The notes beneath the pieces were generated by a model, which was not told the origin of the DNA, ran no database searches, and was given only the letters and a program-made list of their open reading frames with translations. This document shows, one piece after another, positions 6,919 through 59,631 of a stretch of 64,000 nt of DNA; the stretch's first letter is position 1; each line of letters opens with the position of its first letter. The position numbers and the translations under genes are program-made. Where the stretch lies: positions 1-64,000 of the forward strand of contig JACOUS010000031.1 in assembly GCA_016177735.1 (NCBI GenBank). Reading direction: 5' to 3'. Origin of the DNA: Ignavibacteriales bacterium. Its GTDB lineage: Bacteria; Bacteroidota; Ignavibacteria; Ignavibacteriales; Melioribacteraceae.

Positions 6919-7066
6919 GTAATTCCTTTGCCGATGGAAAATTATTATTAAAGATAAATATCTGCCGCTCATCATAGTTTTTCAGCCATTCATCGGTATT
7001 AGCTTTTTTCAACTCACTACATCAAATAGATTTGTTCCGGTAACTAATTTATTGGGAAAGAATCCA

Positions 7067-24722: not shown

Positions 24723-24821
24723 ATTTTTTTATCCAATTTACACGTTCCAACCAATTGGGTTGAACGACAAACCGCATTCTTCCGAATAACTTTGCCCTCC
24801 AAAAAAATTTCAGAGGAAAAA

Positions 24822-45668: not shown

Positions 45669-45918
45669 TAATATCTGATTTTAATCGTTCAAGAGATTGA
45701 ATTTGCGCCGCCCACAGCATAAAATCTTCCGCATCGCCCATTTCGCCATTTAAATATTTTTTGTAGAACTTAGAAGATTTCATACCGTTTTTCGTTTCAT
45801 AATTACGCAATACTTCTTCCGTAGCCTTCATTGAATTTATAATAATAGCTCGCTCCCTTAAAAGTATATTTTTTACCAAATTCTTTTTGTTTTTGCCAGT
45901 TACTTTTATTTTTTCCAT
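45637..45918 (-). CDS. TumA-type antitoxin of the TumE pair
   Basis: A 93-residue Lys/Glu-rich helical protein (KNKKNLVKNILLRERAIIINSM, LERLKSDINDLD) encoded just upstream of, and overlapping, the TumE-type toxin. I recognise it mainly by this position. A start a few codons off is possible. The upstream gap (45919-46066) holds no clear operator. Confidence 0.7.
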   Translation of the reverse strand: MEKIKVTGKNKKNLVKNILLRERAIIINSMKATEEVLRNYETKNGMKSSKFYKKYLNGEMGDAEDFMLWAAQIQSLERLKSDINDLDGVKVVD

Positions 45919-46066
45919 TGTTGACTCTTTTTAATTCACTTCCCCAACCAACGCGCCGGGGAATTCTTCTATTATAAAATACACACAATAAATAACAAAT
46001 TCACCGAACTCTCTCCTCAACACAATTTTTAAGCAAACCACATTCACATCTATTACATATCTGCAC

Positions 46067-47542
46067 TTATTCCGCAAAATGTTTTATCACTTTCTCAACG
46101 TGTTCTTCGCAAATTTTACAGAACGGTTTTGTTCCCTTGCTGAACATCAAACAATCGAGTATCGAGCGGTACATTCCTTTTGAGGAATATCCGGCGCCTT
46201 CAAACACGCCGACTTTGCCCCGGCATTTACTTTTCATCAAATACTGATCAACTTCATCGCTGTGGAATTTATCTTTTTGATTGTACTCGTTTTGTGCGGC
46301 ATCAATTTCTTTTGGCGAAACACGGTTTCGTTTCAACTCAGCAATTTTTTTGTTGATTTCTCTCCGTTCTTTCTGCCAGATCAAATCCATTTTATCATAA
46401 TCTTCTTTTTCCCATTGAGTTGGAACATCAATTCCTTCTGATAAGAATTCCTTCCACTTAATATTTTCCGGATCGAGTGCGCGCGTAATGTTCGGTTCAA
46501 CCGGTTCCAATCCGGCGGTGTAAAATTCGTTGTACGCAACATCGCTTGTGTAATATTCGTCCGCCAAACCGCCGAATGAATGACCGAACTCGTGCAAGAA
46601 AATGTACGGACTAAATTGATTATCACTCACAAACGTGCAATAGAAATTATAAATTCCGCCGCCGCCGTAACGCGGAGAATTGCACATAATATAGATAGCA
46701 TCATATGGAACATGTGCCGCAATATCGCGCATCGTTTTGTTCTCTTCGGTCAAAACATATCTTTCCGAACCGAGCGAATAAAAAGAAGTGCCGAGTGATG
46801 TGCCCTTGTAAATGTTTGCACCGGGTTCGTCAATTCCGCTTTCTTCGGATCTCTTCAGCACACCGTAAATGTTGAACTTATCTTTGTTTGTTTTGAACGG
46901 CTCGTGTTCAAGAAATATTTTTGTGTAGCGTTTCAAATCCTTTTCAAATTTCTTTTGATCTTCTGCAGAGTAACCGTCGCCTAAAATTACAACATCAACT
47001 TTTGTATGCGGGTCCCCGCCGTAATGACTTTTATAAACTTTCACTGTGTTATCTTTTACCGCATCTTTGACGATATAAAGATCCGCCGGTTCAATTTCCG
47101 ACGAGAAAACTTCATTGAGATTATTTTGCTTATCACGTTTCTCAAGAACAAATTTAATTTTGTTTTTGGGATACGGAATAATTGCGCTTTCATGATAAGT
47201 TCTCTTGATTCCGTTTGCCGCCTCTTCGGTTGTTTGATATTCTTTGAAGTAACTGTCGAAGCCGCGCGAAAAAATTAACTTGGTAGTAACGCCATCATAA
47301 ATTTTGTAGTAGTATGCGCCGTTGTTAAAGTTGTCAATCAAATTTTTTGTGCTGCCTGCCCAAATTCCGTATTGGTAAACATGATTAATCGTTACAACTT
47401 CTGTGGATGCATCGCCAATGTGAAAGTAATCGATCCTCATAGTTTGATCCGTGAAGTAATCATCGAAGTGAATAGTTGATTGTGCATATGTTGCGGAGAA
47501 AAGGAAAAAGCAAATGATGAAAAAACTTACGAGTAACTTCAT
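46067..47542 (-). CDS. M64 family metallopeptidase, exported
   Basis: A 491-residue secreted peptidase of family M64 (IgA-peptidase-like). After a signal peptide (cut near TYAQS, residue 21) comes a beta N-domain (about 25-155), then the M64 catalytic domain: VDVVILGDGYSAEDQKKFEKD as the first strand, and the zinc site HEFGHSFGGLADEYY (two His, the Glu base, and Asp as the third ligand as in metzincin-like folds). MSKGTKPFCKICEEH ends the protein. The Clostridium member cleaves IgA, but in environmental Bacteroidota the target is unknown. GAGGG precedes the ATG. Confidence 0.9.
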   Translation of the reverse strand: MKLLVSFFIICFFLFSATYAQSTIHFDDYFTDQTMRIDYFHIGDASTEVVTINHVYQYGIWAGSTKNLIDNFNNGAYYYKIYDGVTTKLIFSRGFDSYFKEYQTTEEAANGIKRTYHESAIIPYPKNKIKFVLEKRDKQNNLNEVFSSEIEPADLYIVKDAVKDNTVKVYKSHYGGDPHTKVDVVILGDGYSAEDQKKFEKDLKRYTKIFLEHEPFKTNKDKFNIYGVLKRSEESGIDEPGANIYKGTSLGTSFYSLGSERYVLTEENKTMRDIAAHVPYDAIYIMCNSPRYGGGGIYNFYCTFVSDNQFSPYIFLHEFGHSFGGLADEYYTSDVAYNEFYTAGLEPVEPNITRALDPENIKWKEFLSEGIDVPTQWEKEDYDKMDLIWQKERREINKKIAELKRNRVSPKEIDAAQNEYNQKDKFHSDEVDQYLMKSKCRGKVGVFEGAGYSSKGMYRSILDCLMFSKGTKPFCKICEEHVEKVIKHFAE

Positions 47543-47573
47543 TGCTACCCTCTTGTATATTTTTTAACACCAC

Positions 47574-47650
47574 AAAGTTAAGAGAAATAGAACGCAGATA
47601 AAATCTGATTTAGCGGATAAAAACCGATCAATCATCGTAAATCTGCAAAG
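47574..47650. repeat. Intergenic repeat sharing AATAGAACGCAGAT
   Basis: Stretch upstream of the M64 gene with AAATAGAACGCAGATAAAAT and GATTTAGCGGATAAAAACCG; the first 14-15 bases match the copy at 2437. It belongs to the ATCTGTG/CGGAT word family with 29010-29076. Confidence 0.4.
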
Positions 47651-47710
47651 CTGGCTTTTTCAATGTTCCTTTGTTTTACTGATGCAAAGAGGGAATGAAA
47701 TTTTTATTTT

Positions 47711-47813
47711 CATACGGTTTGCGGCTTGGCGCAGTGGCGGATTCAAAGCGAGTAACTGTCCAGCGTAATGAAACTAAGTGCGAAATTTTTAGCATTGTCA
47801 TATGATAGCGGGC
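47711..47813. repeat. attC-like site 1 (end of cassette c8, degenerate)
   Basis: On the minus strand it starts near GCCCGCTATC, which pairs seven of nine bases with TTAGCGGTC at the start of cassette c8, and ends CGCCAAGCCGCAAACCGTATG, close to sites 4 and 5 but with GTT mutated to GTA. Middle words GGACAGT and AATCCGCCACT are shared with site 5. As the crossover GTT is lost, this may mark a frozen end of the array. Confidence 0.55.
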
Positions 47814-47815
47814 AA

Positions 47816-48223
47816 CTATTTCGCTTCAACCACATTTTTAATATCAATGAGACTTCCTTCCCAAACTTGATTGCATTGCTTAAAGAAATTCGTTTGCTTT
47901 GTCCAACCCTTGTGTGCAAAGTGAAGAATATTTTCGTCCCCTTTGCTTTCAATGATAAATGTAACAGAAGTGCCAATCCATTCAGGATGTCCAACAGTGC
48001 AATCCCATTTGACTTCTTTATTGGTTTCAAGTTTTGAGACCCTCATTTCATGGTGATTCTCACCGAAATAAAATAATAAAGTGTCGCCAAGGTTTTCTTT
48101 ACCCTTTATTTTCCAACCGTCTTCCTTTGTTAACCATTTTTGGATACCTTCTTTGGTGGCGATTAGTTCATAAATTTTCTTAGCCGAAGCTTTAATTGTA
48201 ATCCGGTGATTGATGTCTGCCAT
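47816..48223 (-). CDS. SRPBCC (AHSA1-type) family protein, cassette c8
   Basis: A 135-residue START-fold protein of the AHSA1/SRPBCC type: NHRITIKASAKKIYELIATKEGIQKWLT, then KGKENLGDTLLFYF and VTFIIESKGDENILHFAHKGW. The fold binds hydrophobic ligands; the role is unknown. GGAAC precedes the ATG. It is the last gene of cassette c8, 43 bases after the DHFR-like gene. Other SRPBCC proteins are at 50338 and 52559 in neighbouring cassettes. Confidence 0.85.
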   Translation of the reverse strand: MADINHRITIKASAKKIYELIATKEGIQKWLTKEDGWKIKGKENLGDTLLFYFGENHHEMRVSKLETNKEVKWDCTVGHPEWIGTSVTFIIESKGDENILHFAHKGWTKQTNFFKQCNQVWEGSLIDIKNVVEAK

Positions 48224-48266
48224 AGTGATGTTCCTTTAAAGGGAATATTTAATAATTGTTTAACAG

Positions 48267-48824
48267 TTATTCATTTACTAACTGGTAGCATAGCAAAACA
48301 ACACCTTTGTCAAGCGTTTGTGTTTTGACAAGTTTCATCCCCGAAGTTTTCATTTCGTCTTTGAAAAAACGCTTTCCACTACCCATAATAACAGGATGAA
48401 CTAATAATCGAAACTCATCAATAAGATTCTCTTTCATTAATGACTGCACAAGGGTGGCACAGCCCGGAATTTGAATTTCACTTCCCTCTTGCTGTTTCAA
48501 CTTCTTGATTTCTTCCACGATATTTTTATTGATGATTGTTGAATTATTCCAGTCGGCTTTTTCCAGTTTGGTAGAAACAACAAACTTCTCCATGCTGTTT
48601 ATTTTGCCTGCAGGCCCATTTTCATCATTCAATTCATATGGCCAATATGCCGCCAGCATTTCATAGGTTGTCCGACCTACGAGTAGAGCACCGGCTCCTA
48701 AAATGCTATCTCTTATGTATTCATCTTTTGCAATGCTATTAAAAGGGAAAAACCATTCATGCATTGTGTCTGCATCAAAGACGCCATCTAGAGTTACCCA
48801 CGCTGAAACTACTAATTTTCTCAT
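48267..48824 (-). CDS. DHFR-like reductase family protein, cassette c8
   Basis: A 185-residue DHFR/RibD C-terminal family protein: VVSAWVTLDGVFDADTM at the start, GALLVGRTTYEMLAAYWPYE, the GCATLVQSL nucleotide turn and LVHPVIMGSGKRFF. A predicted NAD(P)H-dependent reductase of unknown substrate. AAGGAAG precedes the ATG. It lies between the AraC and SRPBCC genes of the same cassette and is probably read with them. Confidence 0.85.
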   Translation of the reverse strand: MRKLVVSAWVTLDGVFDADTMHEWFFPFNSIAKDEYIRDSILGAGALLVGRTTYEMLAAYWPYELNDENGPAGKINSMEKFVVSTKLEKADWNNSTIINKNIVEEIKKLKQQEGSEIQIPGCATLVQSLMKENLIDEFRLLVHPVIMGSGKRFFKDEMKTSGMKLVKTQTLDKGVVLLCYQLVNE

Positions 48825-48903
48825 TTTACTTCCTTCTATATTGTTTTTAACAACACAAAAGTATGTGTACCGGTAAACAAAAAATAGAACAGACCCGACA
48901 TCT

Positions 48904-49689
48904 TTAAGATGCGATTGGTATTGACTTCATGTTTTTCAAATATTCACTTGGAGTGAGATTGGTAAACTCTTTAAAAACACGAACAAAATGACTTTGGTCG
49001 GCAAATCTATTTTCAAAAGCGATGTCGCTGAATTTTAAAAATTGATTTTGATTAAGCTGCTGAAATGCTGAATGGAATTGGCAAATCCTGCCATACATTT
49101 TCGGCGAAATACCAATGTTTGTTTCAAAAAGCCGTTGTAAAGTCCGTTCTGTAATGCCTAATTCTTTCTGAATATTTTGTAATGAAACTTGTCCGTTGTT
49201 ATGCTTTATTTTCTTTGTTGCTAATTCAGTTTTTGTATTTGCTGCAATTGCATTATCGGCTAATTTTTTAATGAAATTATTTAGTAAATCCAAGCGGAAA
49301 TTTAGCATTGGTGTGTTTAAAAGTTGCTCTTGCAAATTGTGCGCTTTAGCTTGTTTCAAAAAAACAAGTTCCATACTTCCATCTGTCAGTTCGTTTGCAC
49401 CAATGTTGAATAAAGAATTTAAGGCATTTGGATATAGGAAATATGCAATTAGCGTGAAATCATTTTTAATGAATAGTTCGTTAGGTTTTACAGTTTGTCC
49501 GTAAAGTGTTAGGTTGTTGATGGTTTTGTTATTACTCGTTGCTTTATCTGTATTAAAAACAAGTGTCGGGCTGCCGTTGGCAAATAATGGAAGGACAAAA
49601 TTATCCAGTTGGCTGTAATTTTCAATGACAAGTATGTTACTCACATATTTTGAAATTGAAAGTTGTGGAATAATTATTTGAGTCTTCAT
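48904..49689 (-). CDS. AraC family regulator, cassette c8
   Basis: A 261-residue regulator: N-terminal sensing domain of the DUF6597 type (residues about 1-130) and a C-terminal AraC helix-turn-helix pair (VSLQNIQKELGITERTLQRLFE, then FADQSHFVRVFKEFTNLTPSEYL). Effector unknown. First gene of cassette c8, so it may regulate the DHFR-like and SRPBCC genes after it. The ATG at 49689 is chosen; an open frame of 37 codons upstream runs through the attC-like site 2 and is not coding. Confidence 0.87.
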   Translation of the reverse strand: MKTQIIIPQLSISKYVSNILVIENYSQLDNFVLPLFANGSPTLVFNTDKATSNNKTINNLTLYGQTVKPNELFIKNDFTLIAYFLYPNALNSLFNIGANELTDGSMELVFLKQAKAHNLQEQLLNTPMLNFRLDLLNNFIKKLADNAIAANTKTELATKKIKHNNGQVSLQNIQKELGITERTLQRLFETNIGISPKMYGRICQFHSAFQQLNQNQFLKFSDIAFENRFADQSHFVRVFKEFTNLTPSEYLKNMKSIPIAS

Positions 49690-49730
49690 TTTCTGTCTGT
49701 ACGTTGATGTTTGGAGTGTCGCCCTACAAT

Positions 49731-49767
49731 GACCGCTAAGAGTTTGCAGCTTAGCGTTGTGCGTATG
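49731..49767. repeat. attC-like site 2 (end of cassette c7, short)
   Basis: A short palindrome with CGCTAAG and CTTAGCG (7 perfect pairs) around AGTTTGCAG. On the minus strand it opens with TACGCACAAC, which matches nine of ten with the complement of the start of cassette c7, and closes with CTCTTAGCGGTCATTG, nearly the same flank as site 4 (GTTAGCGGTCATTG) but with GTT altered. The central part of the site appears deleted. Confidence 0.6.
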
Positions 49768-49796
49768 TGCTCGTATATTTACTCGACCTTTGTTTT

Positions 49797-50303
49797 TCAA
49801 TTCTTCATTTTCTCAACAATCTCCTGACCTTCTTCAGTGATTCCCATTATTTCGGTCATAACGCCAATCTCCTTATAAGTATCAAAAAAAACAATTTTAG
49901 CAATTGGATGATTGAAGCTGGTTATCACTGGAAATCCTTTATCCGCAAATTCGGAAATTACTTTATCAAGATTAGAAACAGGTATGCTATATGCAACGTG
50001 TTGAATCCCTCCCGTAGAATTTTTATCAAGATAATCCTGAAAGATGCTGCGTCCTGAAAGAGGTTGAATCAATTCGATGAATGTTTCACCTGTGTAAGCC
50101 ATTGTAACGAGGCTTTCAGCATCAGACGGCTCTCCATAATACGTTGCATCAAAATCTTTGGCACGAATGGTTGCAACTGTACTAAAGTTGCCTATGCCCA
50201 TAGTGTCCTTAAAAAATCTTTCAGCAACTGTAATATCTTTTACTACCCAAGCAATTTGGGTGAAATGTAAACCAAGGGTGGTTTTTAAAGTAGTAGCTTC
50301 CAT
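49797..50303 (-). CDS. VOC family protein, cassette c7
   Basis: A 168-residue protein of the glyoxalase superfamily: LHFTQIAWVVKDITVAERFFKDTMG at the start and GGIQHVAYSIPVSNLDKVISEF in the second module, then VFFDTYKEIGVMTEIM with a conserved Glu as a possible metal ligand. It resembles the two-module methylmalonyl-CoA-epimerase and isomerase side of the family. The substrate is unknown. Last gene of cassette c7. Confidence 0.83.
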   Translation of the reverse strand: MEATTLKTTLGLHFTQIAWVVKDITVAERFFKDTMGIGNFSTVATIRAKDFDATYYGEPSDAESLVTMAYTGETFIELIQPLSGRSIFQDYLDKNSTGGIQHVAYSIPVSNLDKVISEFADKGFPVITSFNHPIAKIVFFDTYKEIGVMTEIMGITEEGQEIVEKMKN

Positions 50304-50337
50304 AATTATTTTATTATTTTATTGATAAAACATTTAT

Positions 50338-50799
50338 TTAGTTTTCAACATGTTCTCTGAGACATTCAAAAGCGCTTGCCCAACCACCATAATGACTATC
50401 TCTGTCCCTAACAGCTGGAAAAACCGACTGATTAAAATTCATTATGGTTTGATTGCCCGATTTTGAAAAAGTTATTATCACAATCGTATCCAGGTCGGGG
50501 TTTTTGTTCTCACTTCCGTCATTGAATGTAAAAACAAGTTTTTCCCCTTCGATTATTTCAATGTATTTTCCTTCCATCCAATATTCTTCACCATCACCAG
50601 TGGAAATGCCTGCTCTCCAATGTCCGCCAACTCTTACATCAAGTTTGCAATAAGTTACTTCAAAACCTTCAGGACCATACCAAGCAGCAAAGTCTTTTTC
50701 ATTTGTCCATGCTTTAAAAAGTCTTTCAGGTGTTGTATTAAACACTTCGGTCATTTCAAGGACTCTGTCTTTAGATATATTCTTTTGTTTCATTTTCAT
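50338..50799 (-). CDS. SRPBCC (AHSA1-type) family protein, cassette c7
   Basis: A 153-residue AHSA1-type protein: EVFNTTPERLFKAWTNEKDFAAWYGP, GGHWRAGISTGDGEEYWMEGKY, then VIITFSKSGNQTIMNFNQS and the last helix HYGGWASAFECLREHV. In many bacteria such proteins are encoded after an ArsR regulator, as here: its start overlaps the ArsR stop by four bases. The pair is a common stress- or resistance-associated module, but the function is unproven. Confidence 0.88.
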   Translation of the reverse strand: MKMKQKNISKDRVLEMTEVFNTTPERLFKAWTNEKDFAAWYGPEGFEVTYCKLDVRVGGHWRAGISTGDGEEYWMEGKYIEIIEGEKLVFTFNDGSENKNPDLDTIVIITFSKSGNQTIMNFNQSVFPAVRDRDSHYGGWASAFECLREHVEN

Positions 50800-51137
50800 A
50801 CTTTCTTTGTTTTTTTCTCAGCTTGATTTTCATTGTCAATAAAAGTTTTGAGAGAGGTGAACTTTTTAGTCCAAAAGGTTCTGTAATATGAAATCCATTC
50901 ATCCACTTCTTTTAGTTTCTCGGGTTTTAGCTCACAGTATCTTTCACGTCCGTGTTGCTTGATAGCAATAAGCCCGCATTCTTCAAGAATTTTAATATGA
51001 AGCGTAACAGCTTGTCTGCTCATATCAAAATTTTCAGATATAGAGGTTAGGTTTTCTGGTTTACTGGATATTAAATGAATGATAGCCCTTCTTGTCGGGT
51101 CAGCGATTGCTTGAAATATGTCTCGTCTTGTATCCAT
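50796..51137 (-). CDS. ArsR family repressor, cassette c7
   Basis: A 113-residue winged-helix repressor of the ArsR type: FQAIADPTRRAIIHLISSKPENL, NFDMSRQAVTLHIKILEECGL with the recognition helix, and IAIKQHGRERYC. No metal-binding Cys pair of the classical ArsR (ELCVCD) is present, so it is probably not an arsenic sensor. First gene of cassette c7, with a palindromic operator and Bacteroidota-type promoter directly upstream; it most likely represses itself, the SRPBCC and the VOC genes. Confidence 0.9.
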   Translation of the reverse strand: MDTRRDIFQAIADPTRRAIIHLISSKPENLTSISENFDMSRQAVTLHIKILEECGLIAIKQHGRERYCELKPEKLKEVDEWISYYRTFWTKKFTSLKTFIDNENQAEKKTKKV

Positions 51138-51140
51138 TTA

Positions 51141-51190
51141 TGCAAGTATTTACTTGCAAATATAAGTGCAAGCATCCGCTTGCGCAAGTT
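51141..51190 (-). promoter_or_regulatory. Twin palindromic operator over TAnnTTTG promoter
   Basis: Upstream of the ArsR gene of cassette c7: TGCAAGTATTTACTTGCA (51141-51158), an 18-base perfect palindrome, and a second, weaker TGCAAGC/GCTTGCGCA pair (51167-51186). On the minus strand the core reads TATATTTG (TAnnTTTG) with CTTGC about 20 bases upstream, as in Bacteroidota promoters. The first operator overlaps the start region, fit for repression. Confidence 0.7.
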
Positions 51191-51270
51191 TTTCTTTTAA
51201 AAAAATCGAGTTGGTTGAGGTGTCAGTTAATTGGATAGATTAATTTGATTGCGACTGTTATCATAGCATT

Positions 51271-51407
51271 ACGCACAACGCTTTTCAGCTTGCCGAAGGC
51301 GGGGCATTGTAGCACTACCGTTTATTCGGAGAACTGCACTTCAAATATGCGAAAAACTTTCTGCCGAAGCACTGCGCCCCCTCTTTTGGCAATGTGCTGT
51401 TGTGCGT
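51271..51407. repeat. attC-like site 3 (end of cassette c6, complete)
   Basis: A 137-bp imperfect palindrome. Ends ACGCACAAC and GTTGTGCGT are perfect inverts; inner arms TTGCC(G)AA..G.GGGGC and GCCCC..TTTGGCAA pair as well, with an unpaired centre. On the minus strand it starts after AACGCACAAC and closes GCGTTGTGCG. The cassette before it starts TTAGCGGTC, the one case where start and opening core do not match well. Confidence 0.8.
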
Positions 51408-51458
51408 TCGTTTTTCTTTTCAATTTGCTGTAAGTCAGTTTACCGTTTTGTTGTCAAG

Positions 51459-51782
51459 TCAAGATTTTGCCTTGTTTTTTAGAACTGTTTCCAGGTTCTT
51501 CAACTTGTTGTTCCAAAATTTATCGAAGTGGTTTATCCAATTTCTGATTTTGCTAAAACCTTCTTGATTTAACATACAATAGTGCTCTTTACCAATTACT
51601 TGAATGGAAACAAAACCTGCTGTTTGCAAAATTTTAATGTGTTTAGATATAGCAGGTCGGCTCATTTCAAAATTTTCTGAAATGCTGTTTATGTTGTAAC
51701 TGTCTTTTGTAAGCAATTGCAAAATTTGTCGTCTGCTTGGGTCTGCAATTACTTGAAAAACATCAAGATTTGGTGTCGCCAT
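51459..51782 (-). CDS. ArsR family repressor, cassette c6
   Basis: A 107-residue winged-helix protein of the ArsR type: FQVIADPSRRQILQLLTKDSYNINSI, NFEMSRPAISKHIKILQTAGFV and IGKEHYCMLNQ. It resembles the ArsR gene of cassette c7 (similar start and recognition helix) but is clearly distinct. Third gene of cassette c6 after an SRPBCC protein and an NAD(P)-binding protein; it probably controls the promoter upstream of the first gene, which carries a double palindrome. Confidence 0.9.
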   Translation of the reverse strand: MATPNLDVFQVIADPSRRQILQLLTKDSYNINSISENFEMSRPAISKHIKILQTAGFVSIQVIGKEHYCMLNQEGFSKIRNWINHFDKFWNNKLKNLETVLKNKAKS

Positions 51783-51785
51783 AAA

Positions 51786-52547
51786 TTAATCGTTTAAGTC
51801 AGTTTCGTAAACAATACGATTATTGGTTACACAATCTCTCCACCATTCTAACCAAAGTGCAGGGTTTTGTTTGAGAATAAACTGTAAAGCAAGTTCACGT
51901 CTTTCAGGTAAAAATTCCTTTTGTGCTTTCTGAATGTTTCGTCTCAATTGCGAAAGATTTAAGTCGGTGCAATAAACGGGGCTGCCGGGTTGTTGCCTCC
52001 AAGAGTCAGATAGATTTCCAATATCAAATGCGTCAAAACCACTGTCACTTAAAAGTGTCGCTACAACTTGTTTTGCCTGTTTATCGTCGCCCGAAATAGG
52101 TAAAGCAATTCTCGAATTTGTACCATTTGGAAGTCCTGCCTGACAAAGTGAACCTGCCAAAATACTATTGTAAACTTTTATGACAGGTCGAGAAAGTTGG
52201 TTTGAAACAAATATGCTTTCAAGCATACCATTTTCAATTTCTTCAATGCGTCCATCTCTGATAGGGTAGTAGTTAGTGGTGTCAATAATGATTGTATCGA
52301 GTGAAATACTCTCTCCTAAAGACTTTGCCAACTTGGGTATTTCAATTAAGGGAACTGAAATCACTAACACATCAACATCCTTAACAACTTCATTTAAAGG
52401 GACCGCTTTTGCTCCTGTTTCACTTTCCAATGCTTCTAATTTTTCAACTTTGCTTGCGTTGGTCATTTTTACACTGTGACCTGCTTTTCTATACAGCCTT
52501 ATGAGAGCAGAACCAATTTGTCCTGCACCAATTATTCCGATTTTCAT
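51786..52547 (-). CDS. NAD(P)-binding oxidoreductase (F420/NADP-type), cassette c6
   Basis: A 253-residue protein with a Rossmann fold (IGIIGAGQIGSALIRLYRKAGH at the start) similar to F420-dependent NADP oxidoreductases and to NADPH-binding proteins of the same size. VLVISVPLIEI and TIIIDTTNYYPIRDG follow the fold, and a helical C-terminal part ends in ALWLEWWRDCVTNNR. Reaction and cofactor are unknown. It is in the same operon as the SRPBCC and ArsR genes around it. Confidence 0.8.
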   Translation of the reverse strand: MKIGIIGAGQIGSALIRLYRKAGHSVKMTNASKVEKLEALESETGAKAVPLNEVVKDVDVLVISVPLIEIPKLAKSLGESISLDTIIIDTTNYYPIRDGRIEEIENGMLESIFVSNQLSRPVIKVYNSILAGSLCQAGLPNGTNSRIALPISGDDKQAKQVVATLLSDSGFDAFDIGNLSDSWRQQPGSPVYCTDLNLSQLRRNIQKAQKEFLPERRELALQFILKQNPALWLEWWRDCVTNNRIVYETDLND

Positions 52548-52558
52548 TTGATCAACTT

Positions 52559-52990
52559 TTATTTATTAGCGTTAATGTGATTGAGCATTTTTTGGATATT
52601 CTTTTGCCAACCGTCTGTCATTCCTGTAAAGATTGCAAAATTTGCCTCTTTGAATCCTGAATGTTTCAAACTCAACTTCGTTCCGTTTCCTTGCGGTTCT
52701 AATGTCCATTCGCAGATAGTGTCAAGTGTAAAAATCCCATTACCTGAACCGCCTTTCCAACTGTATGAAAGTTTGCGATAGGGTTCAACTTCAAGAACCT
52801 TGCAATGAAAAATACCATCTAAGTCAAGACTTGGCATTGCTTTGGTCTGAAACTGAAATTCGTGTCCGACAATCGGTTTAAAGTTGTTTGGCATAAGCCA
52901 TAAAGCGATTAGTTCCGCTTGTGTGAGATACTCCCAAACTTCGTTTGGGGCTTGCTCATAAATCCATTCGTGTTTAATGTCTGTTTGCAT
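52559..52990 (-). CDS. SRPBCC (AHSA1-type) family protein, cassette c6
   Basis: A 143-residue AHSA1-type protein: WIYEQAPNEVWEYLTQAELIALWLMPNNF, KAMPSLDLDGIFHCKVLEVEPYRKLSYSW, and SLKHSGFKEANFAIFTGMTDGW near the end. First gene of cassette c6, directly after a promoter with two palindromic operators. The ATG at 52990 (start MQTDIKHEW) is used because the operator and promoter region upstream would otherwise be coding. Confidence 0.85.
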   Translation of the reverse strand: MQTDIKHEWIYEQAPNEVWEYLTQAELIALWLMPNNFKPIVGHEFQFQTKAMPSLDLDGIFHCKVLEVEPYRKLSYSWKGGSGNGIFTLDTICEWTLEPQGNGTKLSLKHSGFKEANFAIFTGMTDGWQKNIQKMLNHINANK

Positions 52991-52991
52991 A

Positions 52992-53040
52992 TTGCGTAAC
53001 TTTGAAGTTACAAATGTATGCGTAACTTTCGTGTTACGCA
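52992..53040 (-). promoter_or_regulatory. Twin ArsR-type operators over TAnnTTTG promoter
   Basis: Two copies of a 22-base palindrome: arms TGCGTAAC and GTTACGCA at 53019-53040 (perfect 8-bp arms), and TTGCGTAAC with GTTACAA at 52992-53013 (partly degenerate). On the minus strand the promoter core between them reads TACATTTG (TAnnTTTG), with CTTGC about 20 bases upstream. The ArsR protein of this cassette is the probable ligand-controlled repressor. The leader would be only some 13 bases long. Confidence 0.75.
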
Positions 53041-53111
53041 AGTTTTTGTCAATAATATTTTATTGAGATAAATGTTAGTGTCTATGGGTGTGTCTGCGGT
53101 CGGTCTTACAA

Positions 53112-53318
53112 TGACCGCTAACGGTTTGCGGCTTGGCGATGTGGTGGAATTTGAAAATCGACCGTCCGGAACCGCAGCCGAATAAAAATACAAAAGATGA
53201 AGTTACCAAACAAAAGCTCAACAGAATTCCGTCCGCCCAAACCGCTGCTGATAGCGATAAAATGCCGAAGCTAACAACGTCCAGCCACCATATTGCCAAA
53301 CCGCCTGTTGTACGTTCG
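53112..53318. repeat. attC-like site 4 (end of cassette c5, complete)
   Basis: A 207-bp imperfect palindrome. The outer pair is CCGCTAACGG on the left and GTTGTACG on the right; the inner arms TGCGGCTTGGCGATGTGGTG (53127-53146) and CCACCATATTGCCAAACCGC (53285-53304) pair at 17 of 21. The middle is long and AT-richer. Minus-strand opening CGTACAAC matches the start of cassette c5 (TTGTCCGT) at seven of eight. Confidence 0.78.
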
Positions 53319-53418
53319 TTTTTGTCCGGCGACAAAAACTACTTTGCTCTGTCTGTAAAAGATACTTGGTCAAATTAGCGTCCTTGTTTAAGGAACTCTT
53401 CATTCTTAAATTTACAGT

Positions 53419-53775
53419 TTAGTCGCAAGCCGTATTGTGTCCAAATCTTATGATGTGTCCGTCAGGGCACTCTACTAACATTTCTCTCATATTCCATTCT
53501 TTGTTGTCTGGTTTTGAAAGAATTTTTGCACCACTTTCTTTTATTAGTTCATAGTATTCGTCAACATTGTCAACCACTAAACTAAGCCATGTAGCAGGGC
53601 TTCCTTGATTGTCTTTGCAAAAGAATATTTCAACATTGTCCCGATAAACACCACCGAAAGTTGGTGGGCTCTCCCATTCCCATTTATTCTCAAACTTCAA
53701 TTGCTCAATAAAGTAAGCGATACTTTTTGAAACGTCTCGGGAATTGAGAATAGGAATTGCTTTGTCAAATTTCAT
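53419..53775 (-). CDS. VOC family protein, cassette c5
   Basis: A 118-residue glyoxalase-fold protein: KAIPILNSRDVSKSIAYFIEQLKFENKWEWE at the start, VEIFFCKD, then WLSLVVDNVDEYYELIKESG and CPDGHIIRFGHN. This resembles the single-module bleomycin-binding or FosA-like side of the family. Substrate unknown. Only gene of cassette c5, between attC-like sites 4 and 5. Confidence 0.83.
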   Translation of the reverse strand: MKFDKAIPILNSRDVSKSIAYFIEQLKFENKWEWESPPTFGGVYRDNVEIFFCKDNQGSPATWLSLVVDNVDEYYELIKESGAKILSKPDNKEWNMREMLVECPDGHIIRFGHNTACD

Positions 53776-53822
53776 ATTTGAGTCTATTTGCTTGTTATAA
53801 AAGTAGGATGTCGTTTTAAAAT

Positions 53823-53961
53823 GACGGACAACGGTTTGCGGGTTTAAGAAGTGGCGGATTAAATGCTCGTCACTGTCCCCCGCTACAAAAGTAAATTAAT
53901 TGCACGAAACTTTCTGTTTGCTCGTCAGCCGCCATTGCGGCAAAGTGATGTTGTGCGTTCG
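53823..53961. repeat. attC-like site 5 (end of cassette c4, complete)
   Basis: A 139-bp palindrome: ACGGACAACGG on the left and GTTGTGCGTTC on the right, inner arms GTGGCGGATT and the CGTCAGCCGCC region, and middle word CACTGTCCCCCG. The minus strand opens CGCACAAC, matching the start of cassette c4 (TTGTGCG) at seven of seven, and closes ACCGTTGTCCGTC. Confidence 0.75.
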
Positions 53962-53975
53962 TGCTTTCTTGTCTG

Positions 53976-54302
53976 TCAGGCAAGTTTAACAAAGTTGTCT
54001 TCAAGTTTTACATTGAAATTGATTTCTGCCTTCAATGCTCTGAACACTTTTATTATTGTGTCAATTGTCGCACTGTTAGCACTGCTTTCAAGTTTAGAAA
54101 TTTGCGCTTTCTGCACTCCAATAAGTCGTCCAAGTTCTTCTTGAGTCAAGTTTCTTTCTTGTCTTGCAGCTTTTATCATTTTTCCTAACACGTCCATACG
54201 AAGTTCGTATTCGTATTCGTCACGCTCTTGTGTCCCGACTTTGCCGATATACTTGTCTTTCATCTCGGCAAGCGTGTATGTCTTTAATTTTTTAGTTGCC
54301 AT
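53976..54302 (-). CDS. XRE-type antitoxin (HigA-like), cassette c4
   Basis: A 108-residue protein with an Xre/Cro helix-turn-helix: KMIKAARQERNLTQEELGRLIGVQKAQISKLE (about 50-80). It is encoded just after a HigB-like toxin, four bases apart, in the toxin-first order typical of HigBA. It would bind the palindrome upstream of the toxin gene and silence both. Full length for the family. Confidence 0.87.
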   Translation of the reverse strand: MATKKLKTYTLAEMKDKYIGKVGTQERDEYEYELRMDVLGKMIKAARQERNLTQEELGRLIGVQKAQISKLESSANSATIDTIIKVFRALKAEINFNVKLEDNFVKLA

Positions 54303-54306
54303 ATGA

Positions 54307-54648
54307 TTACTTTTTTTGTTTGTTCTCGAAATATTTATCTCTCAGTCTTACAGCCCGGTCTATTTCATTTGCCGGAACCTTGTCCACTTTCTTTATGAAA
54401 CCGTGAGTTGCAAGAACCAAAGTTTCTTTCTTATCCGTCTTGTCCCAAAATGCAAGAAGTCTGATTTGAAGTCCTGCGTATTTTGTCCGAAACTCCCAAA
54501 TATCGTTTTGAAGTTTCTTAAAAAGTTTTGGGTCATTGGTCTGTTCAGCAAAGTCAATATTGTAAAAAATTTTCTTGATAGTCTTAGGGTCAAGCTTTGA
54601 AATGAACTCGTCCGCTTCTTCTAAAAATTTTGTCTCAAAATATCTCAT
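54307..54648 (-). CDS. HigB-like (Gp49/DUF891) toxin, cassette c4
   Basis: A 113-residue protein of the RelE superfamily, phage-derived Gp49-like type (DUF891): FLEEADEFISKLDPKTIKKI, LQNDIWEFRTKYAGLQIRLLAF, LVLATHGFIKKVDKVPANEIDRA. Such toxins cleave translated mRNA. First gene of a two-gene operon in cassette c4. Confidence 0.87.
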   Translation of the reverse strand: MRYFETKFLEEADEFISKLDPKTIKKIFYNIDFAEQTNDPKLFKKLQNDIWEFRTKYAGLQIRLLAFWDKTDKKETLVLATHGFIKKVDKVPANEIDRAVRLRDKYFENKQKK

Positions 54649-54686
54649 TCAATACTGTCTTGTTAAACGTCACTAAGGTAATAAAA

Positions 54687-54704
54687 GTTTCTAAATATAG
54701 AAAC
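54687..54704 (-). promoter_or_regulatory. Palindromic operator for the HigBA-like operon
   Basis: GTTTCTAAATATAGAAAC, 7-bp perfect arms around AATA, 38 bases upstream of the HigB-like start. It is placed as a typical antitoxin operator. Confidence 0.6.
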
Positions 54705-54743
54705 AATAATTTTCATTATTTTGTCGGTGTCGTTTTTTCTAAG

Positions 54744-54884
54744 CTGGCGCACAACGTTTTGCGGCTACCCGAAGGTGGCGATTTTAGAACACTGAACTGT
54801 CTTTACCGATAAAGGTTTGATAGATGCACAAAGCTTCAAAGTTGCACTGTCCCGCCACTTTTGGGTAGGTGCTGTTATAGCCAG
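54744..54884. repeat. attC-like site 6 (end of cassette c3, complete)
   Basis: A 141-bp palindrome with ends CTGGCGCACAACG and GCTGTTATAGCCAG. The inner arms CTACCC..AAGGTGGCG and CGCCAC..TTGGGTAG pair at 14 of 16. The minus strand opens GGCTATAAC, matching the complement of the start of cassette c3 (TTATAAGCC) but for one missing base, and closes ACGTTGTGCGCC. Confidence 0.8.
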
Positions 54885-54925
54885 TGCTTTGTTTCGTGTT
54901 TTCAGTTGTCGTCATTTCTCTGTCG

Positions 54926-55010
54926 TGCGTTGGCTTTGCAAGCTTATTTAAAAACTTTGGTTGTGTGATGGCTTGTGCGGTTTTTAAATGTGCTTGCAAA
55001 ATGCGTTGGC
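54926..55010. repeat. 67-base palindrome between 9-bp direct repeats
   Basis: Direct copies of TGCGTTGGC (54926-54934, 55002-55010) flank a palindrome with arms TTTGCAAGC..ATTTAAAAAC and GTTTTTAAAT..GCTTGCAAA. It sits at the stop codon of the AbiEii gene. The layout (target-like duplication plus inverted repeats) suggests a mini-insertion, or a terminator that happens to have flanking repeats. Confidence 0.55.
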
Positions 55011-56011
55011 TATTTTATTTCGTTCACTCTTTTTTGTAGTTCCTTTATTCGTTTTATTAAAGTGTCAAAACTTAATGGTTCTCCGTAAATCATATTCTTT
55101 GCCATTGTCTGATAGTCCTTTTCCCATTCATTGATTATTTCACTCGGTGGAATAATTTTTATTTTACTCGGAATGTGATTTGCATAATCAAGTCCACGAA
55201 GCGCATTAAACTTTTCTCTGTGTGCTACAATGCCCTTATATAGTTCGGTGTCTTTGATGGCAGATTTTCCGTGCTCTGTATCCATCAATTTCTCTAAATC
55301 GTACAAGTGTCTTGATAACCTGTCTATGCGGATTTTTGCAATTTCCTGTGAAAACTCTTCGTGCAATAAAAATATTTTTTCTAAAAATGTTCTCTGCGGT
55401 AAAACTGTCGAAATACTGAATGGCTCGGTTTTAAATGCTTGGTCGGGAAACACAGAAGTAAGTATTGAATTAATTTCTCTGTGCTCACTTGGCTCCATTA
55501 ATGAGCGTGAACTAACTTCTATTAAAACTCTCTGTGGTAAATAATCTGATTTGTCAAATACAGAATTGTAATGAATCTCGATTACTTGCGGATCTTTGTC
55601 AGAATCATTTACTGGTTGAGCGTTTAACTTGCATTCGCCAATAGCTTTCCATTCGGTAAATTTATTTGTTAAGTCAGCTAAAAATGTAGTTGAAATAAAT
55701 TCGCAAGATTGTTTTCTTAAATTTTTGATTTGATTTTTGCTGATGTGGTCGTCAAAGCCAAAGAATTTTTTATCAATAGCTAAATCAATATCTTCTGAAA
55801 ACCGTTCTATCAAATCCCAACCTTTACTTAATGAAGTTCCACCTTTGAAAACAATATGAGGCGAATATTTTAAAGAGAATGAAGCATTTAAAGATAGAGT
55901 TACCCACCAGTCTTTTTCAATAGCTATTGCAGGCAATCCCGAAGCATTACTTGCTTGATTTAGAATTTCAATCCTTCTTTCTTTAGATAATTTTAACCAC
56001 GCTGTATTCAT
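55010..56011 (-). CDS. AbiEii-type nucleotidyltransferase toxin, cassette c3
   Basis: A 333-residue protein of the AbiEii/AbiGii family, toxin of a phage-defence system. The nucleotidyltransferase core is FKGGTSLSKGWDLIERFSEDIDLAI (Gly-Gly-Thr-Ser, then Asp-x-Asp). AbiEii transfers nucleotides, by present knowledge onto tRNA acceptor ends, and halts growth after phage infection. Upstream by one base lies the antitoxin. Only a 9-base-repeat-flanked palindrome follows the stop. Confidence 0.9.
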   Translation of the reverse strand: MNTAWLKLSKERRIEILNQASNASGLPAIAIEKDWWVTLSLNASFSLKYSPHIVFKGGTSLSKGWDLIERFSEDIDLAIDKKFFGFDDHISKNQIKNLRKQSCEFISTTFLADLTNKFTEWKAIGECKLNAQPVNDSDKDPQVIEIHYNSVFDKSDYLPQRVLIEVSSRSLMEPSEHREINSILTSVFPDQAFKTEPFSISTVLPQRTFLEKIFLLHEEFSQEIAKIRIDRLSRHLYDLEKLMDTEHGKSAIKDTELYKGIVAHREKFNALRGLDYANHIPSKIKIIPPSEIINEWEKDYQTMAKNMIYGEPLSFDTLIKRIKELQKRVNEIK

Positions 56012-56012
56012 A

Positions 56013-56615
56013 TCATTTTACTGCACTCATTAATATTTTATTTATCCAAGCCGGTGCAAGTTTAGCATCGTGTAAGATATTTTCTTTTTTTTCTTTTTTC
56101 AAAACAGCCTGTAATTTTTTCAAACTTTCATCTTCCAATTTATTTTGACTAATGCTTTTCAAAGCTTGAATTACCAAACTGCTTATTTCACCTTTTGCTA
56201 ACAAATTTTTTGGGCTAGTTTTTTTAAATGTGATTGTTCTCTTTCCGATTTTAATACTTCTTGCCGCCCCATCTGTCAAGAAAACTGCTTTTAAAGGAAT
56301 TTGAGTTGATAGTCCTAATTTGTTTAATGCCTGAACACCAGTCGGAATTATTCTTGCCCGATCTCTTTTAGCAATGGCAATTGCGATATCTTCTGCGGAA
56401 GGATATAATACACCCAAGTCTTTGTCAGTTTTTGGGAATAGATAAATGCCGTGAGCCAAGCGAACCAGCAAGCCCTTCTCTTCAAGTCTGAATAGTGCTT
56501 TTTTAATGCTTTCAGAATTGCCGAAATCCAAAAAGTCATCCACAAACAGAATACTGCCTTTTTGCAGTTTCTTTAGCTTTTCAGCCACTTTATTTTCTAC
56601 TACTGGTCTTTCCAT
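56013..56615 (-). CDS. AbiEi-type antitoxin (DUF6088), cassette c3
   Basis: A 200-residue protein with an N-terminal winged helix (KKALFRLEEKGLLVRLAHGIYLFP) and a C-terminal antitoxin domain (LGLSTQIPLKAVFLTDGAARSI, KRTITFKKTSPKNL). This is the DUF6088/AbiEi layout: a DNA-binding antitoxin that represses its own operon. A palindromic operator lies directly upstream of the ATG. It is encoded before the AbiEii toxin with one base between the stop and the next start. Confidence 0.88.
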   Translation of the reverse strand: MERPVVENKVAEKLKKLQKGSILFVDDFLDFGNSESIKKALFRLEEKGLLVRLAHGIYLFPKTDKDLGVLYPSAEDIAIAIAKRDRARIIPTGVQALNKLGLSTQIPLKAVFLTDGAARSIKIGKRTITFKKTSPKNLLAKGEISSLVIQALKSISQNKLEDESLKKLQAVLKKEKKENILHDAKLAPAWINKILMSAVK

Positions 56616-56625
56616 GGTTTAAACT

Positions 56626-56654
56626 CGTCCCAAATATAGCAAATAATTGGGACG
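56626..56654 (-). promoter_or_regulatory. Palindromic operator with TAnnTTTG promoter for abiE
   Basis: Arms CGTCCCAA (56626-56633) and TTGGGACG (56647-56654), 8 perfect pairs. On the minus strand the core TATATTTG, a Bacteroidota -7 motif, lies inside the palindrome, so AbiEi binding would block it. The start codon is 11 bases away. Confidence 0.7.
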
Positions 56655-56793
56655 AAATAAGAGATGCTGAATAATTTTTATTCGGTTGCTTTCCAGGTTG
56701 GGTTGCAGCTCTTTTGATTTTGCAGAAGCGTTGGCAGTTTTTGTCATTTTTTAGTCGGTCGGTTTATTCTTTACGTGTCGGTCTGTAAGCATT

Positions 56794-56994
56794 GGCTTAT
56801 AACGCCCAGGGCTTTCTGCTGTGCTGATATTCCGTGTTACTTCAGCCCGAACTGTCGCTGAGTAAAGGTAATGCAGATGATATTATATTCTGTTGCTCGG
56901 CTTTATTCGTCCAGCCCGGACTGCAGATGATAAGCGATATGTCGATGAGTTCATATTCTTCAGCCAGCATAGCAGAAAACCCCTTGTTAGCGGC
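56794..56994. repeat. attC-like site 7 (end of cassette c2, complete)
   Basis: A 201-bp palindrome: GGCTTATAACGCCC on one side and GTTAGCGGC on the other; inner arms CCCAGGGCTTTCTGCTGTGC (from 56805) and CAGCATAGCAGAAAACCCC pair at 16 of 18. The minus strand opens GCCGCTAAC, exactly complementary to the start TTAGCGGC of cassette c2. It holds an AT-rich unpaired centre with no gene. Confidence 0.8.
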
Positions 56995-56996
56995 AG

Positions 56997-57593
56997 TTAT
57001 TTTTTTTCATGTTTCTCAATTATATCATTTACCACGTCAGTAGAGAACTTAATTAAAAGGATACTGTCATCGTATAACTCTTTAATCTCTTTAAAGTTTA
57101 TGACATCGGTTTTGTCCTCTATTGCTTTCTTATCGAAATTAGGAGTTACGCCGTCATTTTTTACTGGATACCTAAATGCGTAAGATAATTCGTCTAGCTT
57201 ATGAATCAACTTCTTTAAACTGGTCAGTTTAGAGTTTAATTTGTTAAATTGCTTTACAACGTCTTTATCTGCATTGTACTTTTTAAATATGGCTTTCATC
57301 TGATTTTCAAATTCAAAATGGAGGTTGTCAATCCGATGAGCAGATTTTCCTTTATATTCAATTTTAGCTTTTAAATCTGATACCTTCTCTAATTCAATCA
57401 AATTCATTTTGTAGCCTAGCTCAAGTGTATGTCTTATTAGAAAAGCTAGTGGCAAAGCTACTACTGTAATTTCGCCGGCTGTTATGGATTTGAATAACAA
57501 GTCAACGCAATATTGATATTCACCAAAATATCTCCACCACTCTGATTTATATGTCAGTTTTTGATTGTAGTTTAATTCTGGTCCTCTTTTCAT
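56997..57593 (-). CDS. HEPN-like protein of unknown function, cassette c2
   Basis: A 198-residue helical protein. The region FLIRHTLELGYKMNLIELEKV and a following KSAHRIDNLHFEFENQMKAIFKKY resemble the helix pattern and H-containing core of HEPN-type proteins, which often act as RNases in toxin and phage-defence systems. I do not see the exact R-x4-6-H motif, so the assignment is tentative. It is the only gene in cassette c2; its ATG follows the attC-like core by 11 bases, so it has no promoter of its own there. Confidence 0.55.
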   Translation of the reverse strand: MKRGPELNYNQKLTYKSEWWRYFGEYQYCVDLLFKSITAGEITVVALPLAFLIRHTLELGYKMNLIELEKVSDLKAKIEYKGKSAHRIDNLHFEFENQMKAIFKKYNADKDVVKQFNKLNSKLTSLKKLIHKLDELSYAFRYPVKNDGVTPNFDKKAIEDKTDVINFKEIKELYDDSILLIKFSTDVVNDIIEKHEKK

Positions 57594-57597
57594 AATT

Positions 57598-57621
57598 GCC
57601 GCTAACGTTTTTAATTTAGCC
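57598..57621. repeat. attC-like site 8 (end of cassette c1, minimal)
   Basis: Minus-strand GGCTAAATTAAAAACGTTAGCGGC, overlapping the last codons of the AIPR gene. GCTAA and TTAGC pair, but the arms are very short. GCTAA also matches the start TTAGC of cassette c1. It may be a worn or minimal attC. Confidence 0.45.
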
Positions 57622-59527
57622 TCTCTATATTTTTCGCTTGTTGTCCTTTATGCGATTCAAAAATGTCGAACGACAACTGGAGTCCGATTGGCACAATTCC
57701 CTTATGGGCTTTTTCTAGTTCTGTGTAATGAACAAAAGCATCGTCTTCTGTATGGTCTATGCGGACAAAGCCAAAGCCTTTAAGAGAGTTGTAATATGTG
57801 ATTTTGCCAACTTTTTTATTGGCAGTGATTGCAGGTAATAGTTCTTCTGTAAAGGCCCGCGTCAGGTGTGCTTGTCTTGGCAACTGGGTTGTCTTGTTTA
57901 GTACAGATTGCAATTTTGCTTCAAGAGATTTGAAAATTTCCAATGCCTTTGTCCTGTCCCAAAGAGCTTCTAAAATTTTGTTGCAATATTTTTCCATTTC
58001 CTTATTTCCAGACACATTGATTGGAACCTTTTCGCCAGCAACTTGAATGCGGAACATTAATAATAAATGATATTTAAAGCGCTTTGATGTTGGATTTAAT
58101 TCGTAGTCCCTGAAAAATTCCTCTATAATATTTAGGGCTATTCCGCTTGTGTAATAAGGCCAAAAGGAATGATTGTCTTGAAATAACCGATTATTATATG
58201 AACTCAGGAGCTCACCAAAATATCTTTGAGTACTTTGCGGCTCATTTAAAAACATAGCAATAAATGATGCTATTTGTGACGACAATCCAATTATTTTTTC
58301 ACTTTTAGCTTTGGATCCGAAAAACTGTCTTGAGCGTCTTTCATAGTAAAGTTTTTTATTCTCCTCCTTGTCGAACGTGAGATAAAATTCTTCCAATTTT
58401 TTATGAAATGGTTTTAAAATTTCAAATGCTTCATTTTTGACTTCCGTTTGACTATTTGTCGCACGAATGATATCGTTAATTGTATCATCATCATCCGTGA
58501 CAATTAATTTTAGAGGAAGCAATACCTTGTCGTTTATGTCCTTTTTAAGATGATGTAATACGTGAGATGTTTGGCAACCATTAACAATTTGAAATTCGCT
58601 TATTTTAAAAGCACTACCAACCTTATTCAATCCTTTTGCCACAATGGTAATTCCATTATTTAATAGAACAAACTTGTCATTAGCAGTTTTGGTTTCTATG
58701 GATTTTTTGATGCCAGAATTCACTTTGTTGTAACCTTGAAAGTCCCGCACATTGTCATAGAAAATTGTCTTGATTATTTCTCCGTCCTCATCACTAGTGA
58801 TTTTTATTAATTCTGATGCGGGAAGAATGCCAAGATAAGATTCTGTTATTTTGTCAATTTTTGGGAGTATAGTATGCTTTTCAAAGATTATTTCTTTGGT
58901 GATTTTATTTTTGATTTCCCTGTATAGTGATTTTAGTTTGTCTGCGTCTACAGGAATGAACTTGATCTCAAAAAATAAGTCGAATTGGTTTAAGTCCTTT
59001 ATTCCCGAATTTATGATGGTCTGTAAATTCTGGTCTTCTACCCATTTGCCTGTCGTGGCATAGTACAGTTTCAGAGATGGACTTTTTTCCATCTTAATAC
59101 TGTTCTTGTAAATGTAATTCTTCAAGTCTCTTAAATTAAGAAGCTCATCTTCAAATTTAAGTTCTCCGTCTCGGAAAAATTCCTTTACAGAAGCGATGAA
59201 TGTATTTATAGAACCTAATTCAAATGAGTCAGAGGTTTTGGATTGAATAAAACTAAACTCAATATCTAATAAGTCTGCGTCTTGAATGAAATAGTCAATT
59301 TCCTCCTGAGAAGTTGCTAAGTGATTATTTACCATTATGGCCAACCCGTCAATTCCTGGGTTTCTTGTTCCGCCAACATTAATTTTGTCTACAGAGGACC
59401 GGTCAGGATAGATTTTAGAAACCAGTACGTAATTAACAAAGTGTTCGAATAGCTTCGATTTGTCAACTCCGCTATAGTTAAATTCCGTTTTAAAGTCCTC
59501 GATAAAACTTTCAATAATTCTGTCCAT
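57611..59527 (-). CDS. AIPR family protein with C-terminal cold-shock domain, cassette c1
   Basis: A 638-residue protein with an unusual layout. The N-part (about 20-100) has GGTRNPGIDGLAI and later FIQSKTS, arranged as in Mrr-like PD-(D/E)xK nucleases (Asp60, Gln95-Ser-Lys97). The middle (about 280-420) is the AIPR domain of abortive-infection proteins: LLNNGITIVAKG, IVNGCQTSHVLHHL, NSQTEVKNEAFEILKPFHKKL and YYERRSRQF. The last about 65 residues form a cold-shock domain (GKITYYNSLKGFGFVRI with RNP1, DAFVHYTELE with RNP2, LSFDIFESHKGQQAKNI). A nuclease paired with a nucleic-acid-binding tail suggests single-strand or RNA recognition. First cassette beside the recombinase. Confidence 0.83.
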   Translation of the reverse strand: MDRIIESFIEDFKTEFNYSGVDKSKLFEHFVNYVLVSKIYPDRSSVDKINVGGTRNPGIDGLAIMVNNHLATSQEEIDYFIQDADLLDIEFSFIQSKTSDSFELGSINTFIASVKEFFRDGELKFEDELLNLRDLKNYIYKNSIKMEKSPSLKLYYATTGKWVEDQNLQTIINSGIKDLNQFDLFFEIKFIPVDADKLKSLYREIKNKITKEIIFEKHTILPKIDKITESYLGILPASELIKITSDEDGEIIKTIFYDNVRDFQGYNKVNSGIKKSIETKTANDKFVLLNNGITIVAKGLNKVGSAFKISEFQIVNGCQTSHVLHHLKKDINDKVLLPLKLIVTDDDDTINDIIRATNSQTEVKNEAFEILKPFHKKLEEFYLTFDKEENKKLYYERRSRQFFGSKAKSEKIIGLSSQIASFIAMFLNEPQSTQRYFGELLSSYNNRLFQDNHSFWPYYTSGIALNIIEEFFRDYELNPTSKRFKYHLLLMFRIQVAGEKVPINVSGNKEMEKYCNKILEALWDRTKALEIFKSLEAKLQSVLNKTTQLPRQAHLTRAFTEELLPAITANKKVGKITYYNSLKGFGFVRIDHTEDDAFVHYTELEKAHKGIVPIGLQLSFDIFESHKGQQAKNIERLN

Positions 59528-59544
59528 TGTTGTCTATTTAAAAT

Positions 59545-59555
59545 GTTTGCTAACT
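59545..59555. other. Candidate attI-like insertion point
   Basis: Minus-strand GAGTTAGCAAAC, between the recombinase and the first cassette. It has the GTT core seen at each cassette boundary and lies where attI is expected. It is small, without arms, as attI sites usually are. Confidence 0.45.
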
Positions 59556-59631
59556 CATTATTTTACGCAATATAAATTATTTAAAGTATTTTCTTAACTT
59601 TACTGCGTGTAGTCCAACAAAAAATGGGATT

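Follow-up and report, generated by a model that had tools for sequence, protein, structure and literature searches.

The stretch of DNA analysed here, which we call the window, comprises 64,000 nucleotides from an Ignavibacteriales bacterium (assembly GCA_016177735.1, contig JACOUS010000031.1, positions 1-64,000). A single intact ORF for a protein of 638 aa was called on its minus strand between positions 57611 and 59527, and the plus strand over the same interval is full of stops. The first 563 residues of the encoded protein match the PADLOC AbiU model (PDLC02357, E 8e-128), residues 256-538 match the Pfam AIPR domain (PF10592; 144.4 bits against a cut-off of 25, E 8e-42), and residues 574-635 match the Pfam cold-shock domain (CSD; 38.8 bits against a cut-off of 27, E 9e-10). 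A sequence-only reading had picked out the AIPR motifs NNGITI and NGCQTSH in the middle of the protein, a nuclease-like GIDG...QSK at its start, and a complete CSD with RNP1 and RNP2 at its C-terminus, and all three assignments hold up. The AIPR motifs lie at residues 290-295 and 316-322, inside the Pfam domain; GIDG (58-61) and QSK (95-97) lie in a region with a PD-(D/E)xK nuclease fold; and the tail, in which RNP1 reads KGFGFV and RNP2 reads AFVHY, scores above the Pfam cut-off and has a CspA-like predicted fold. MzaE of the MZA system was rejected as an identity for the protein, at 49.6 bits against an NCBIfam equivalog cut-off of 1050.

Table 1. Features of the AbiU/AIPR-CSD locus, with window coordinates. 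Residue numbers refer to the 638-aa protein; numbers with the prefix L are our own labels.
Feature	Position	Strand	Basis or remark
AbiU/AIPR protein with C-terminal cold-shock domain, CDS, 638 aa	57611..59527	-	ORF, Pfam, PADLOC
PD-(D/E)xK nuclease domain, residues 1-208 (E28, D60, Q95-x-K97)	58904..59527	-	Fold match; conservation, 78 rows
Pfam AIPR domain, residues 256-538	57914..58762	-	Pfam
ParB/sulfiredoxin-like core of AIPR region, residues 220-363	58439..58870	-	Fold matches, conservation
Mainly helical domain, residues 364-566, in part like the SspE middle region	57830..58438	-	6jiv_A, Z 5.0
Cold-shock domain (OB fold), residues 571-638, RNP1 and RNP2	57614..57817	-	Pfam, CspA 1mjc
GTTAGCAAAC, integron-type core site, start of AIPR-CSD cassette	59545..59554	-	Also precedes L017 relative
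GTTAGCGGCA, core site opening the next cassette (198-aa gene), right after AIPR-CSD stop	57597..57606	-	
198-aa ORF, shares one fused cassette with AIPR-CSD gene	56997..57593	-	
attC-like site closing fused cassette: R'' TGCCGCTAAC, R' GTTATAAGC	56795..56995	-	Folds as ssDNA, z -2.3
Divergent Xer-like tyrosine recombinase, 273 aa	59632..60453	+	

An integron-like setting

The AIPR-CSD gene forms the end of a minus-strand gene run and adjoins a divergent tyrosine recombinase (Table 1). Its description in the sequence-only reading as the newest-position cassette next to the recombinase stands in part. The core site GTTAGCAAAC is present, the recombinase does adjoin the gene, and a relative in another genome (L017) has the same GTTAGCAAAC start together with the expected GTTTGCTAAC, an attC half-site, after its stop. 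In the window, a GTTTGCTAAC-type site is missing after the AIPR-CSD stop, and the next cassette follows directly. That cassette holds a 198-aa ORF for which Pfam, NCBIfam, PADLOC and PHROGs gave nothing above cut-off. This second cassette opens with GTTAGCGGCA and closes with TGCCGCTAAC, its exact reverse complement. Given the missing attC and the abutting cassette, AIPR-CSD seems to be a cassette gene whose own attC was lost, leaving it in a fused cassette. The recombinase reaches 164.5 bits against the integron-integrase model TIGR02249, whose cut-off is 265, and we therefore grade the setting as integron-like and no further; its closest model is XerA-type (196.6 bits against a cut-off of 220).

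The intergenic spaces contain repeats that terminate in GTTRGCGG or GTTGTGCG and have complementary partners, in greater number than in shuffled sequences. Core sites match at two cassettes of the window and at L017, and only two of the six candidate attC sites fold with z below -2. The array as a whole (45279-59630) consists of unrelated minus-strand genes with attC-like repeats between them and the Xer-type recombinase at its end; in genomes of the same family (L154, L156), related recombinases are likewise divergent to runs of small genes. Also within the array, on the minus strand, are an AbiEi/AbiEii pair (DUF6088 and AbiEii, 55010-56615) and a HigBA-type, HigB/HigA-like pair (53976-54648), which are two more defence or toxin-antitoxin cassettes. 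Glyoxalase, ArsR and SRPBCC genes belong to the same minus-strand run. In the one genome from the same genus, a search for the flanking DUF4159 gene, as an anchor for comparison with an empty site, gave no counterpart.

Three modules of the protein

The model of the whole protein (mean pLDDT 88.5) is made up of three modules. Residues 3-208 form an alpha/beta fold that aligns best with the nuclease region of FokI (1fok; Z 10.4, 146 residues, 3.9 A) and with MspJI (4f0q; Z 8.9, 133 residues) at an identity of 12-13%, and the active-site order D...(D/Q)-x-K is shared as well. Across 78 aligned rows, D60 and Q95 are invariant, E28 is kept in 76 and K97 in 70. A glutamine at the second acidic position is likewise found in MspJI-type enzymes. 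The N-terminus thus has both the fold and the conserved acidic/lysine site of a PD-(D/E)xK nuclease. Unlike FokI and MspJI, the window protein is without their recognition domains and has AIPR attached instead. The eight rows in which K97 is replaced by E are all tailless AbiU proteins, with QAE in place of Q-x-K (L042, L045, L058, L087, L089, L090, L100 and L107), and judging from this substitution they are possibly an inactive or altered branch of the nuclease. AIPR proteins have been described as starting with a HEPN domain (PMC3506569). An all-helical HEPN N-terminus is ruled out for the window protein by the FokI/MspJI-like alpha/beta fold, which contradicts that description for the subfamily to which the protein belongs.

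Folded alone, the AIPR region gave a model with pLDDT 90, for which ParB, PadC, Noc or sulfiredoxin proteins fill all of the top eight fold entries (Z 5.2-6.5 over 96-103 residues), as against a best unrelated row of Z 2.9. These alignments cover the same ~97 residues that carry the invariant motifs; in residues 220-363 the invariant positions are N259, R261, N270, N290-N291-G292, T294, Q313, N316-G317, Q319, N358 and Q360. Two SspE entries occur within the next three rows, and the SspE alignment spans the core as well as the helical part. When the whole-protein model was compared with a viral structure library, the folds returned were those of GmrSD-N, DNA-sulfur-modification, ParB and occlusion proteins. 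By sequence, the AIPR region had no match to solved structures up to E 10, and hhalign against DndB and GmrSD-N profiles, each built from few proteins (sets of 7 and 13), gave probabilities below 1%. With Z scores in the middling range and the weight resting on the consistency of the matches, we hold with moderate confidence that the predicted AIPR core has the ParB/sulfiredoxin fold.

This assignment places the region beside the defence NTPases SspE, DndB and GmrSD, in that its sole consistent fold neighbours belong to the ParB/sulfiredoxin superfamily, and the DndB N-terminus had earlier been grouped with AbiU1/AIPR by Makarova 2012 (PMC3506569). Provided that the motifs correspond, NGCQT of AIPR stands against DGQHR of DndB and DGQQR of GmrSD-N. 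In contrast to SspE, the window protein has its nuclease at the opposite end, and that nuclease is of a different fold. ParB-fold proteins, a DndB-like one among them, bind nucleoside triphosphates (PMC12704722, in which AIPR is unmentioned).

The predicted structure of the tail matches CspA (1mjc) with Z 11.4 and an rmsd of 1.8 A over 67 residues. G16, F27 and H29 of the CSD are kept in all 23 fused CSDs, position 15 is F or Y in all 23, and F17 is kept in 21; the kept residues correspond to single-strand contacts of CspB. For pairs with measurable dS, dN/dS in the CSD is 0.07-0.20, above that of the core and far below 1, and by these estimates the tail is under purifying selection. Against the retron Se72 effector model NF038236 the tail scores 44.6 bits, below the cut-off of 82, so that this identity was rejected; the two are alike in being defence-associated CSDs, and differ in that the effector is a stand-alone small protein whereas the window CSD is a fused tail.

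Distribution of the fusion and of other OB tails

Relatives were collected by a core scan with one genome per species, which gave 517, and the best 80 were taken on; such sampling favours the fusion, and no frequency can be derived from it. Among the loci examined, including these 80, an AbiU and a CSD are fused in the same frame at 22 loci besides the window. The five closest, at 70-79% identity, are from Emticicia, Dysgonomonas, Fulvivirga, [Flexibacter] and a Limnohabitans MAG. Other fusions, 35-47% identical to the window protein, come from Planctomycetota, Myxococcota, Acidobacteriota, Spirochaetota, Thermodesulfobacteriota, Nitrospirota, Nitrospinota, Chloroflexota, Verrucomicrobiota and Pseudomonadota, and one fusion lies on an IMG/VR contig (L095). 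With Bacteroidota counted in, eleven named phyla carry the fusion among the loci examined. The search of other genomes for the fusion, proposed along with the sequence-only reading, did recover the architecture, and the 22 further loci rule out an assembly artefact or a lone fusion.

In a tree built from the core only, the rows with a CSD occupy one side of a single branch and are accounted for by one change, at a weak support of 67; this fits a single gain with later transfer between phyla, within the limits of that support. The full-length match over residues 1-563 makes the window protein like its tailless AbiU relatives, which have the same nuclease start and AIPR core and occur in phages, plasmids and chromosomes. 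It differs from them by the added C-terminal CSD, which the PADLOC model does not include and most sampled relatives lack. Since most of the latter have no OB tail of any sort, the basic function of the AbiU family does not depend on one. One AbiU gene, on Synechocystis pSYSX (L011, 3989-6875), is broken by an IS4Sa insertion and annotated as two genes.

Two further kinds of tail were found. A separate AbiU lineage (L005 and L006) has a divergent CSD, with L005 scoring 18.3 bits against a cut-off of 27, and a lineage from Clostridia (L057 and L093) has an S1-like domain in the same C-terminal place as the CSD, with 21.4 bits in L057, just below the Pfam cut-off of 22, and a weaker score in L093. 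On these scores, OB-fold tails recur in three separate AbiU lineages.

The genes next to CSD members have a defence flavour that varies from locus to locus: a TIR protein and a type I restriction subunit (L026), a DNA methylase (L021), an AAA ATPase (L044), a DEAD/ResIII helicase (L036), RelA/SpoT (L037) and TauD (L017). A fixed partner gene is ruled out among the CSD members examined, none being constant, which fits a single gene that stands alone. AbiU/AIPR proteins as such are already known, and the attached complete CSD is a variant unnamed in the literature searched; that search found no paper joining AIPR with a cold-shock domain, and Pfam or InterPro architecture listings may well show it.

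Proposed mechanism and other roles for the tail

We put at roughly one in two the probability that the gene encodes a single-gene AbiU/AIPR anti-phage effector, composed of a PD-(D/E)xK nuclease, a nucleotide-gated AIPR region and a CSD tail that binds single strands. The N-terminal nuclease would be the effector, an activity we infer from its fold and conserved site. Going by its predicted fold, the AIPR region is most likely an on/off switch that binds a nucleoside triphosphate, and the tail, by its fold and contact residues, most likely binds single-stranded nucleic acid, RNA being the probable ligand. Cold-shock domains bind single-stranded RNA and ssDNA alike, so that either could be the ligand. 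Two observations favour RNA: in one lineage the place of the CSD is taken by an S1-like domain, and the CSDs fused in CoCoNuT systems, relatives of McrBC, have been interpreted as targeting RNA (PMC11090510). CoCoNuT proteins are, like the window protein, defence proteins with CSD-like OB folds; they differ in being GTPase-based, encoded by multiple genes and without an AIPR domain.

Under the proposed mechanism, phage transcription or replication would expose single-stranded RNA or DNA, the tail would engage the exposed strand, and the nucleotide switch would then free the nuclease. Nucleic acid would be cut near the tethered strand and phage development would halt, with the host cell dying or not. 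The suggestion of the sequence-only reading that the tail may guide the protein to, or sense, RNA or ssDNA during infection is made somewhat likelier, by analogy, by the S1-like tail found elsewhere in the family.

The tail might instead hold the substrate, the protein cutting RNA or ssDNA bound by the CSD, which would then set substrate choice and processivity and have no part in sensing infection. We regard this as rather unlikely: CSD and S1-like tails do bind single strands and occupy the same end of the protein, and the PD-(D/E)xK domain has no other recognised substrate reader, but the nearest nuclease folds, FokI and MspJI, cut double-stranded DNA, and most family members work without a tail. 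That tailless relatives do without any such device also weighs on the proposal, to our minds improbable, that the tail is a restraint, binding abundant host RNA or the protein's own mRNA and keeping the nuclease off until a phage alters the RNA pool. Cold-shock proteins are, as is well established, general RNA binders, and the binding residues of the tail are conserved; moreover, a nuclease toxin has to be kept in check, and beside CSD members no antitoxin-like partner recurs. A passenger tail, inherited by fusion and aiding folding or stability with no role in defence, would agree with the faster evolution of the CSD, which is 56-63% identical between the window protein and its near relatives as against about 82% for the core. 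The low dN/dS, RNP residues invariant across eleven phyla and the recurrence of tails of the OB type, in three AbiU lineages separately, all disfavour it, and make it very improbable.

Returning to a tail that senses infection, we tentatively extend the proposal to the family: the C-terminal OB domain, be it CSD, divergent CSD or S1-like, could be a replaceable trigger on nucleotide-gated AbiU nucleases, each version sensing its own kind of single-stranded infection product, probably RNA. This is a doubtful generalization at present, and if true, it would describe a widespread family of RNA-triggered nucleases under the control of a ParB-like switch, in which swaps between CSD and S1-like tails are suggested to tune the trigger. 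Defence islands, phages and plasmids commonly encode AbiU/AIPR proteins. The label 'AIPR protein' can here be resolved into three separately testable parts, a restriction-type nuclease, a ParB-like switch and an optional single-strand binder, and the conserved tail offers a concrete handle on what an AbiU/AIPR protein recognises.

Two other genes in the window have irregular structures. At 24792-27117, a TonB-dependent-receptor-like gene appears to be divided between two ORFs that lie in different frames, with the break near 25613-25672, a frameshift that is either natural or arose in assembly. The ORF at 7052-7903 resembles a CocE/S15 hydrolase at its start and a glyoxalase/VOC protein at its end, and looks like a fusion produced by deletion.
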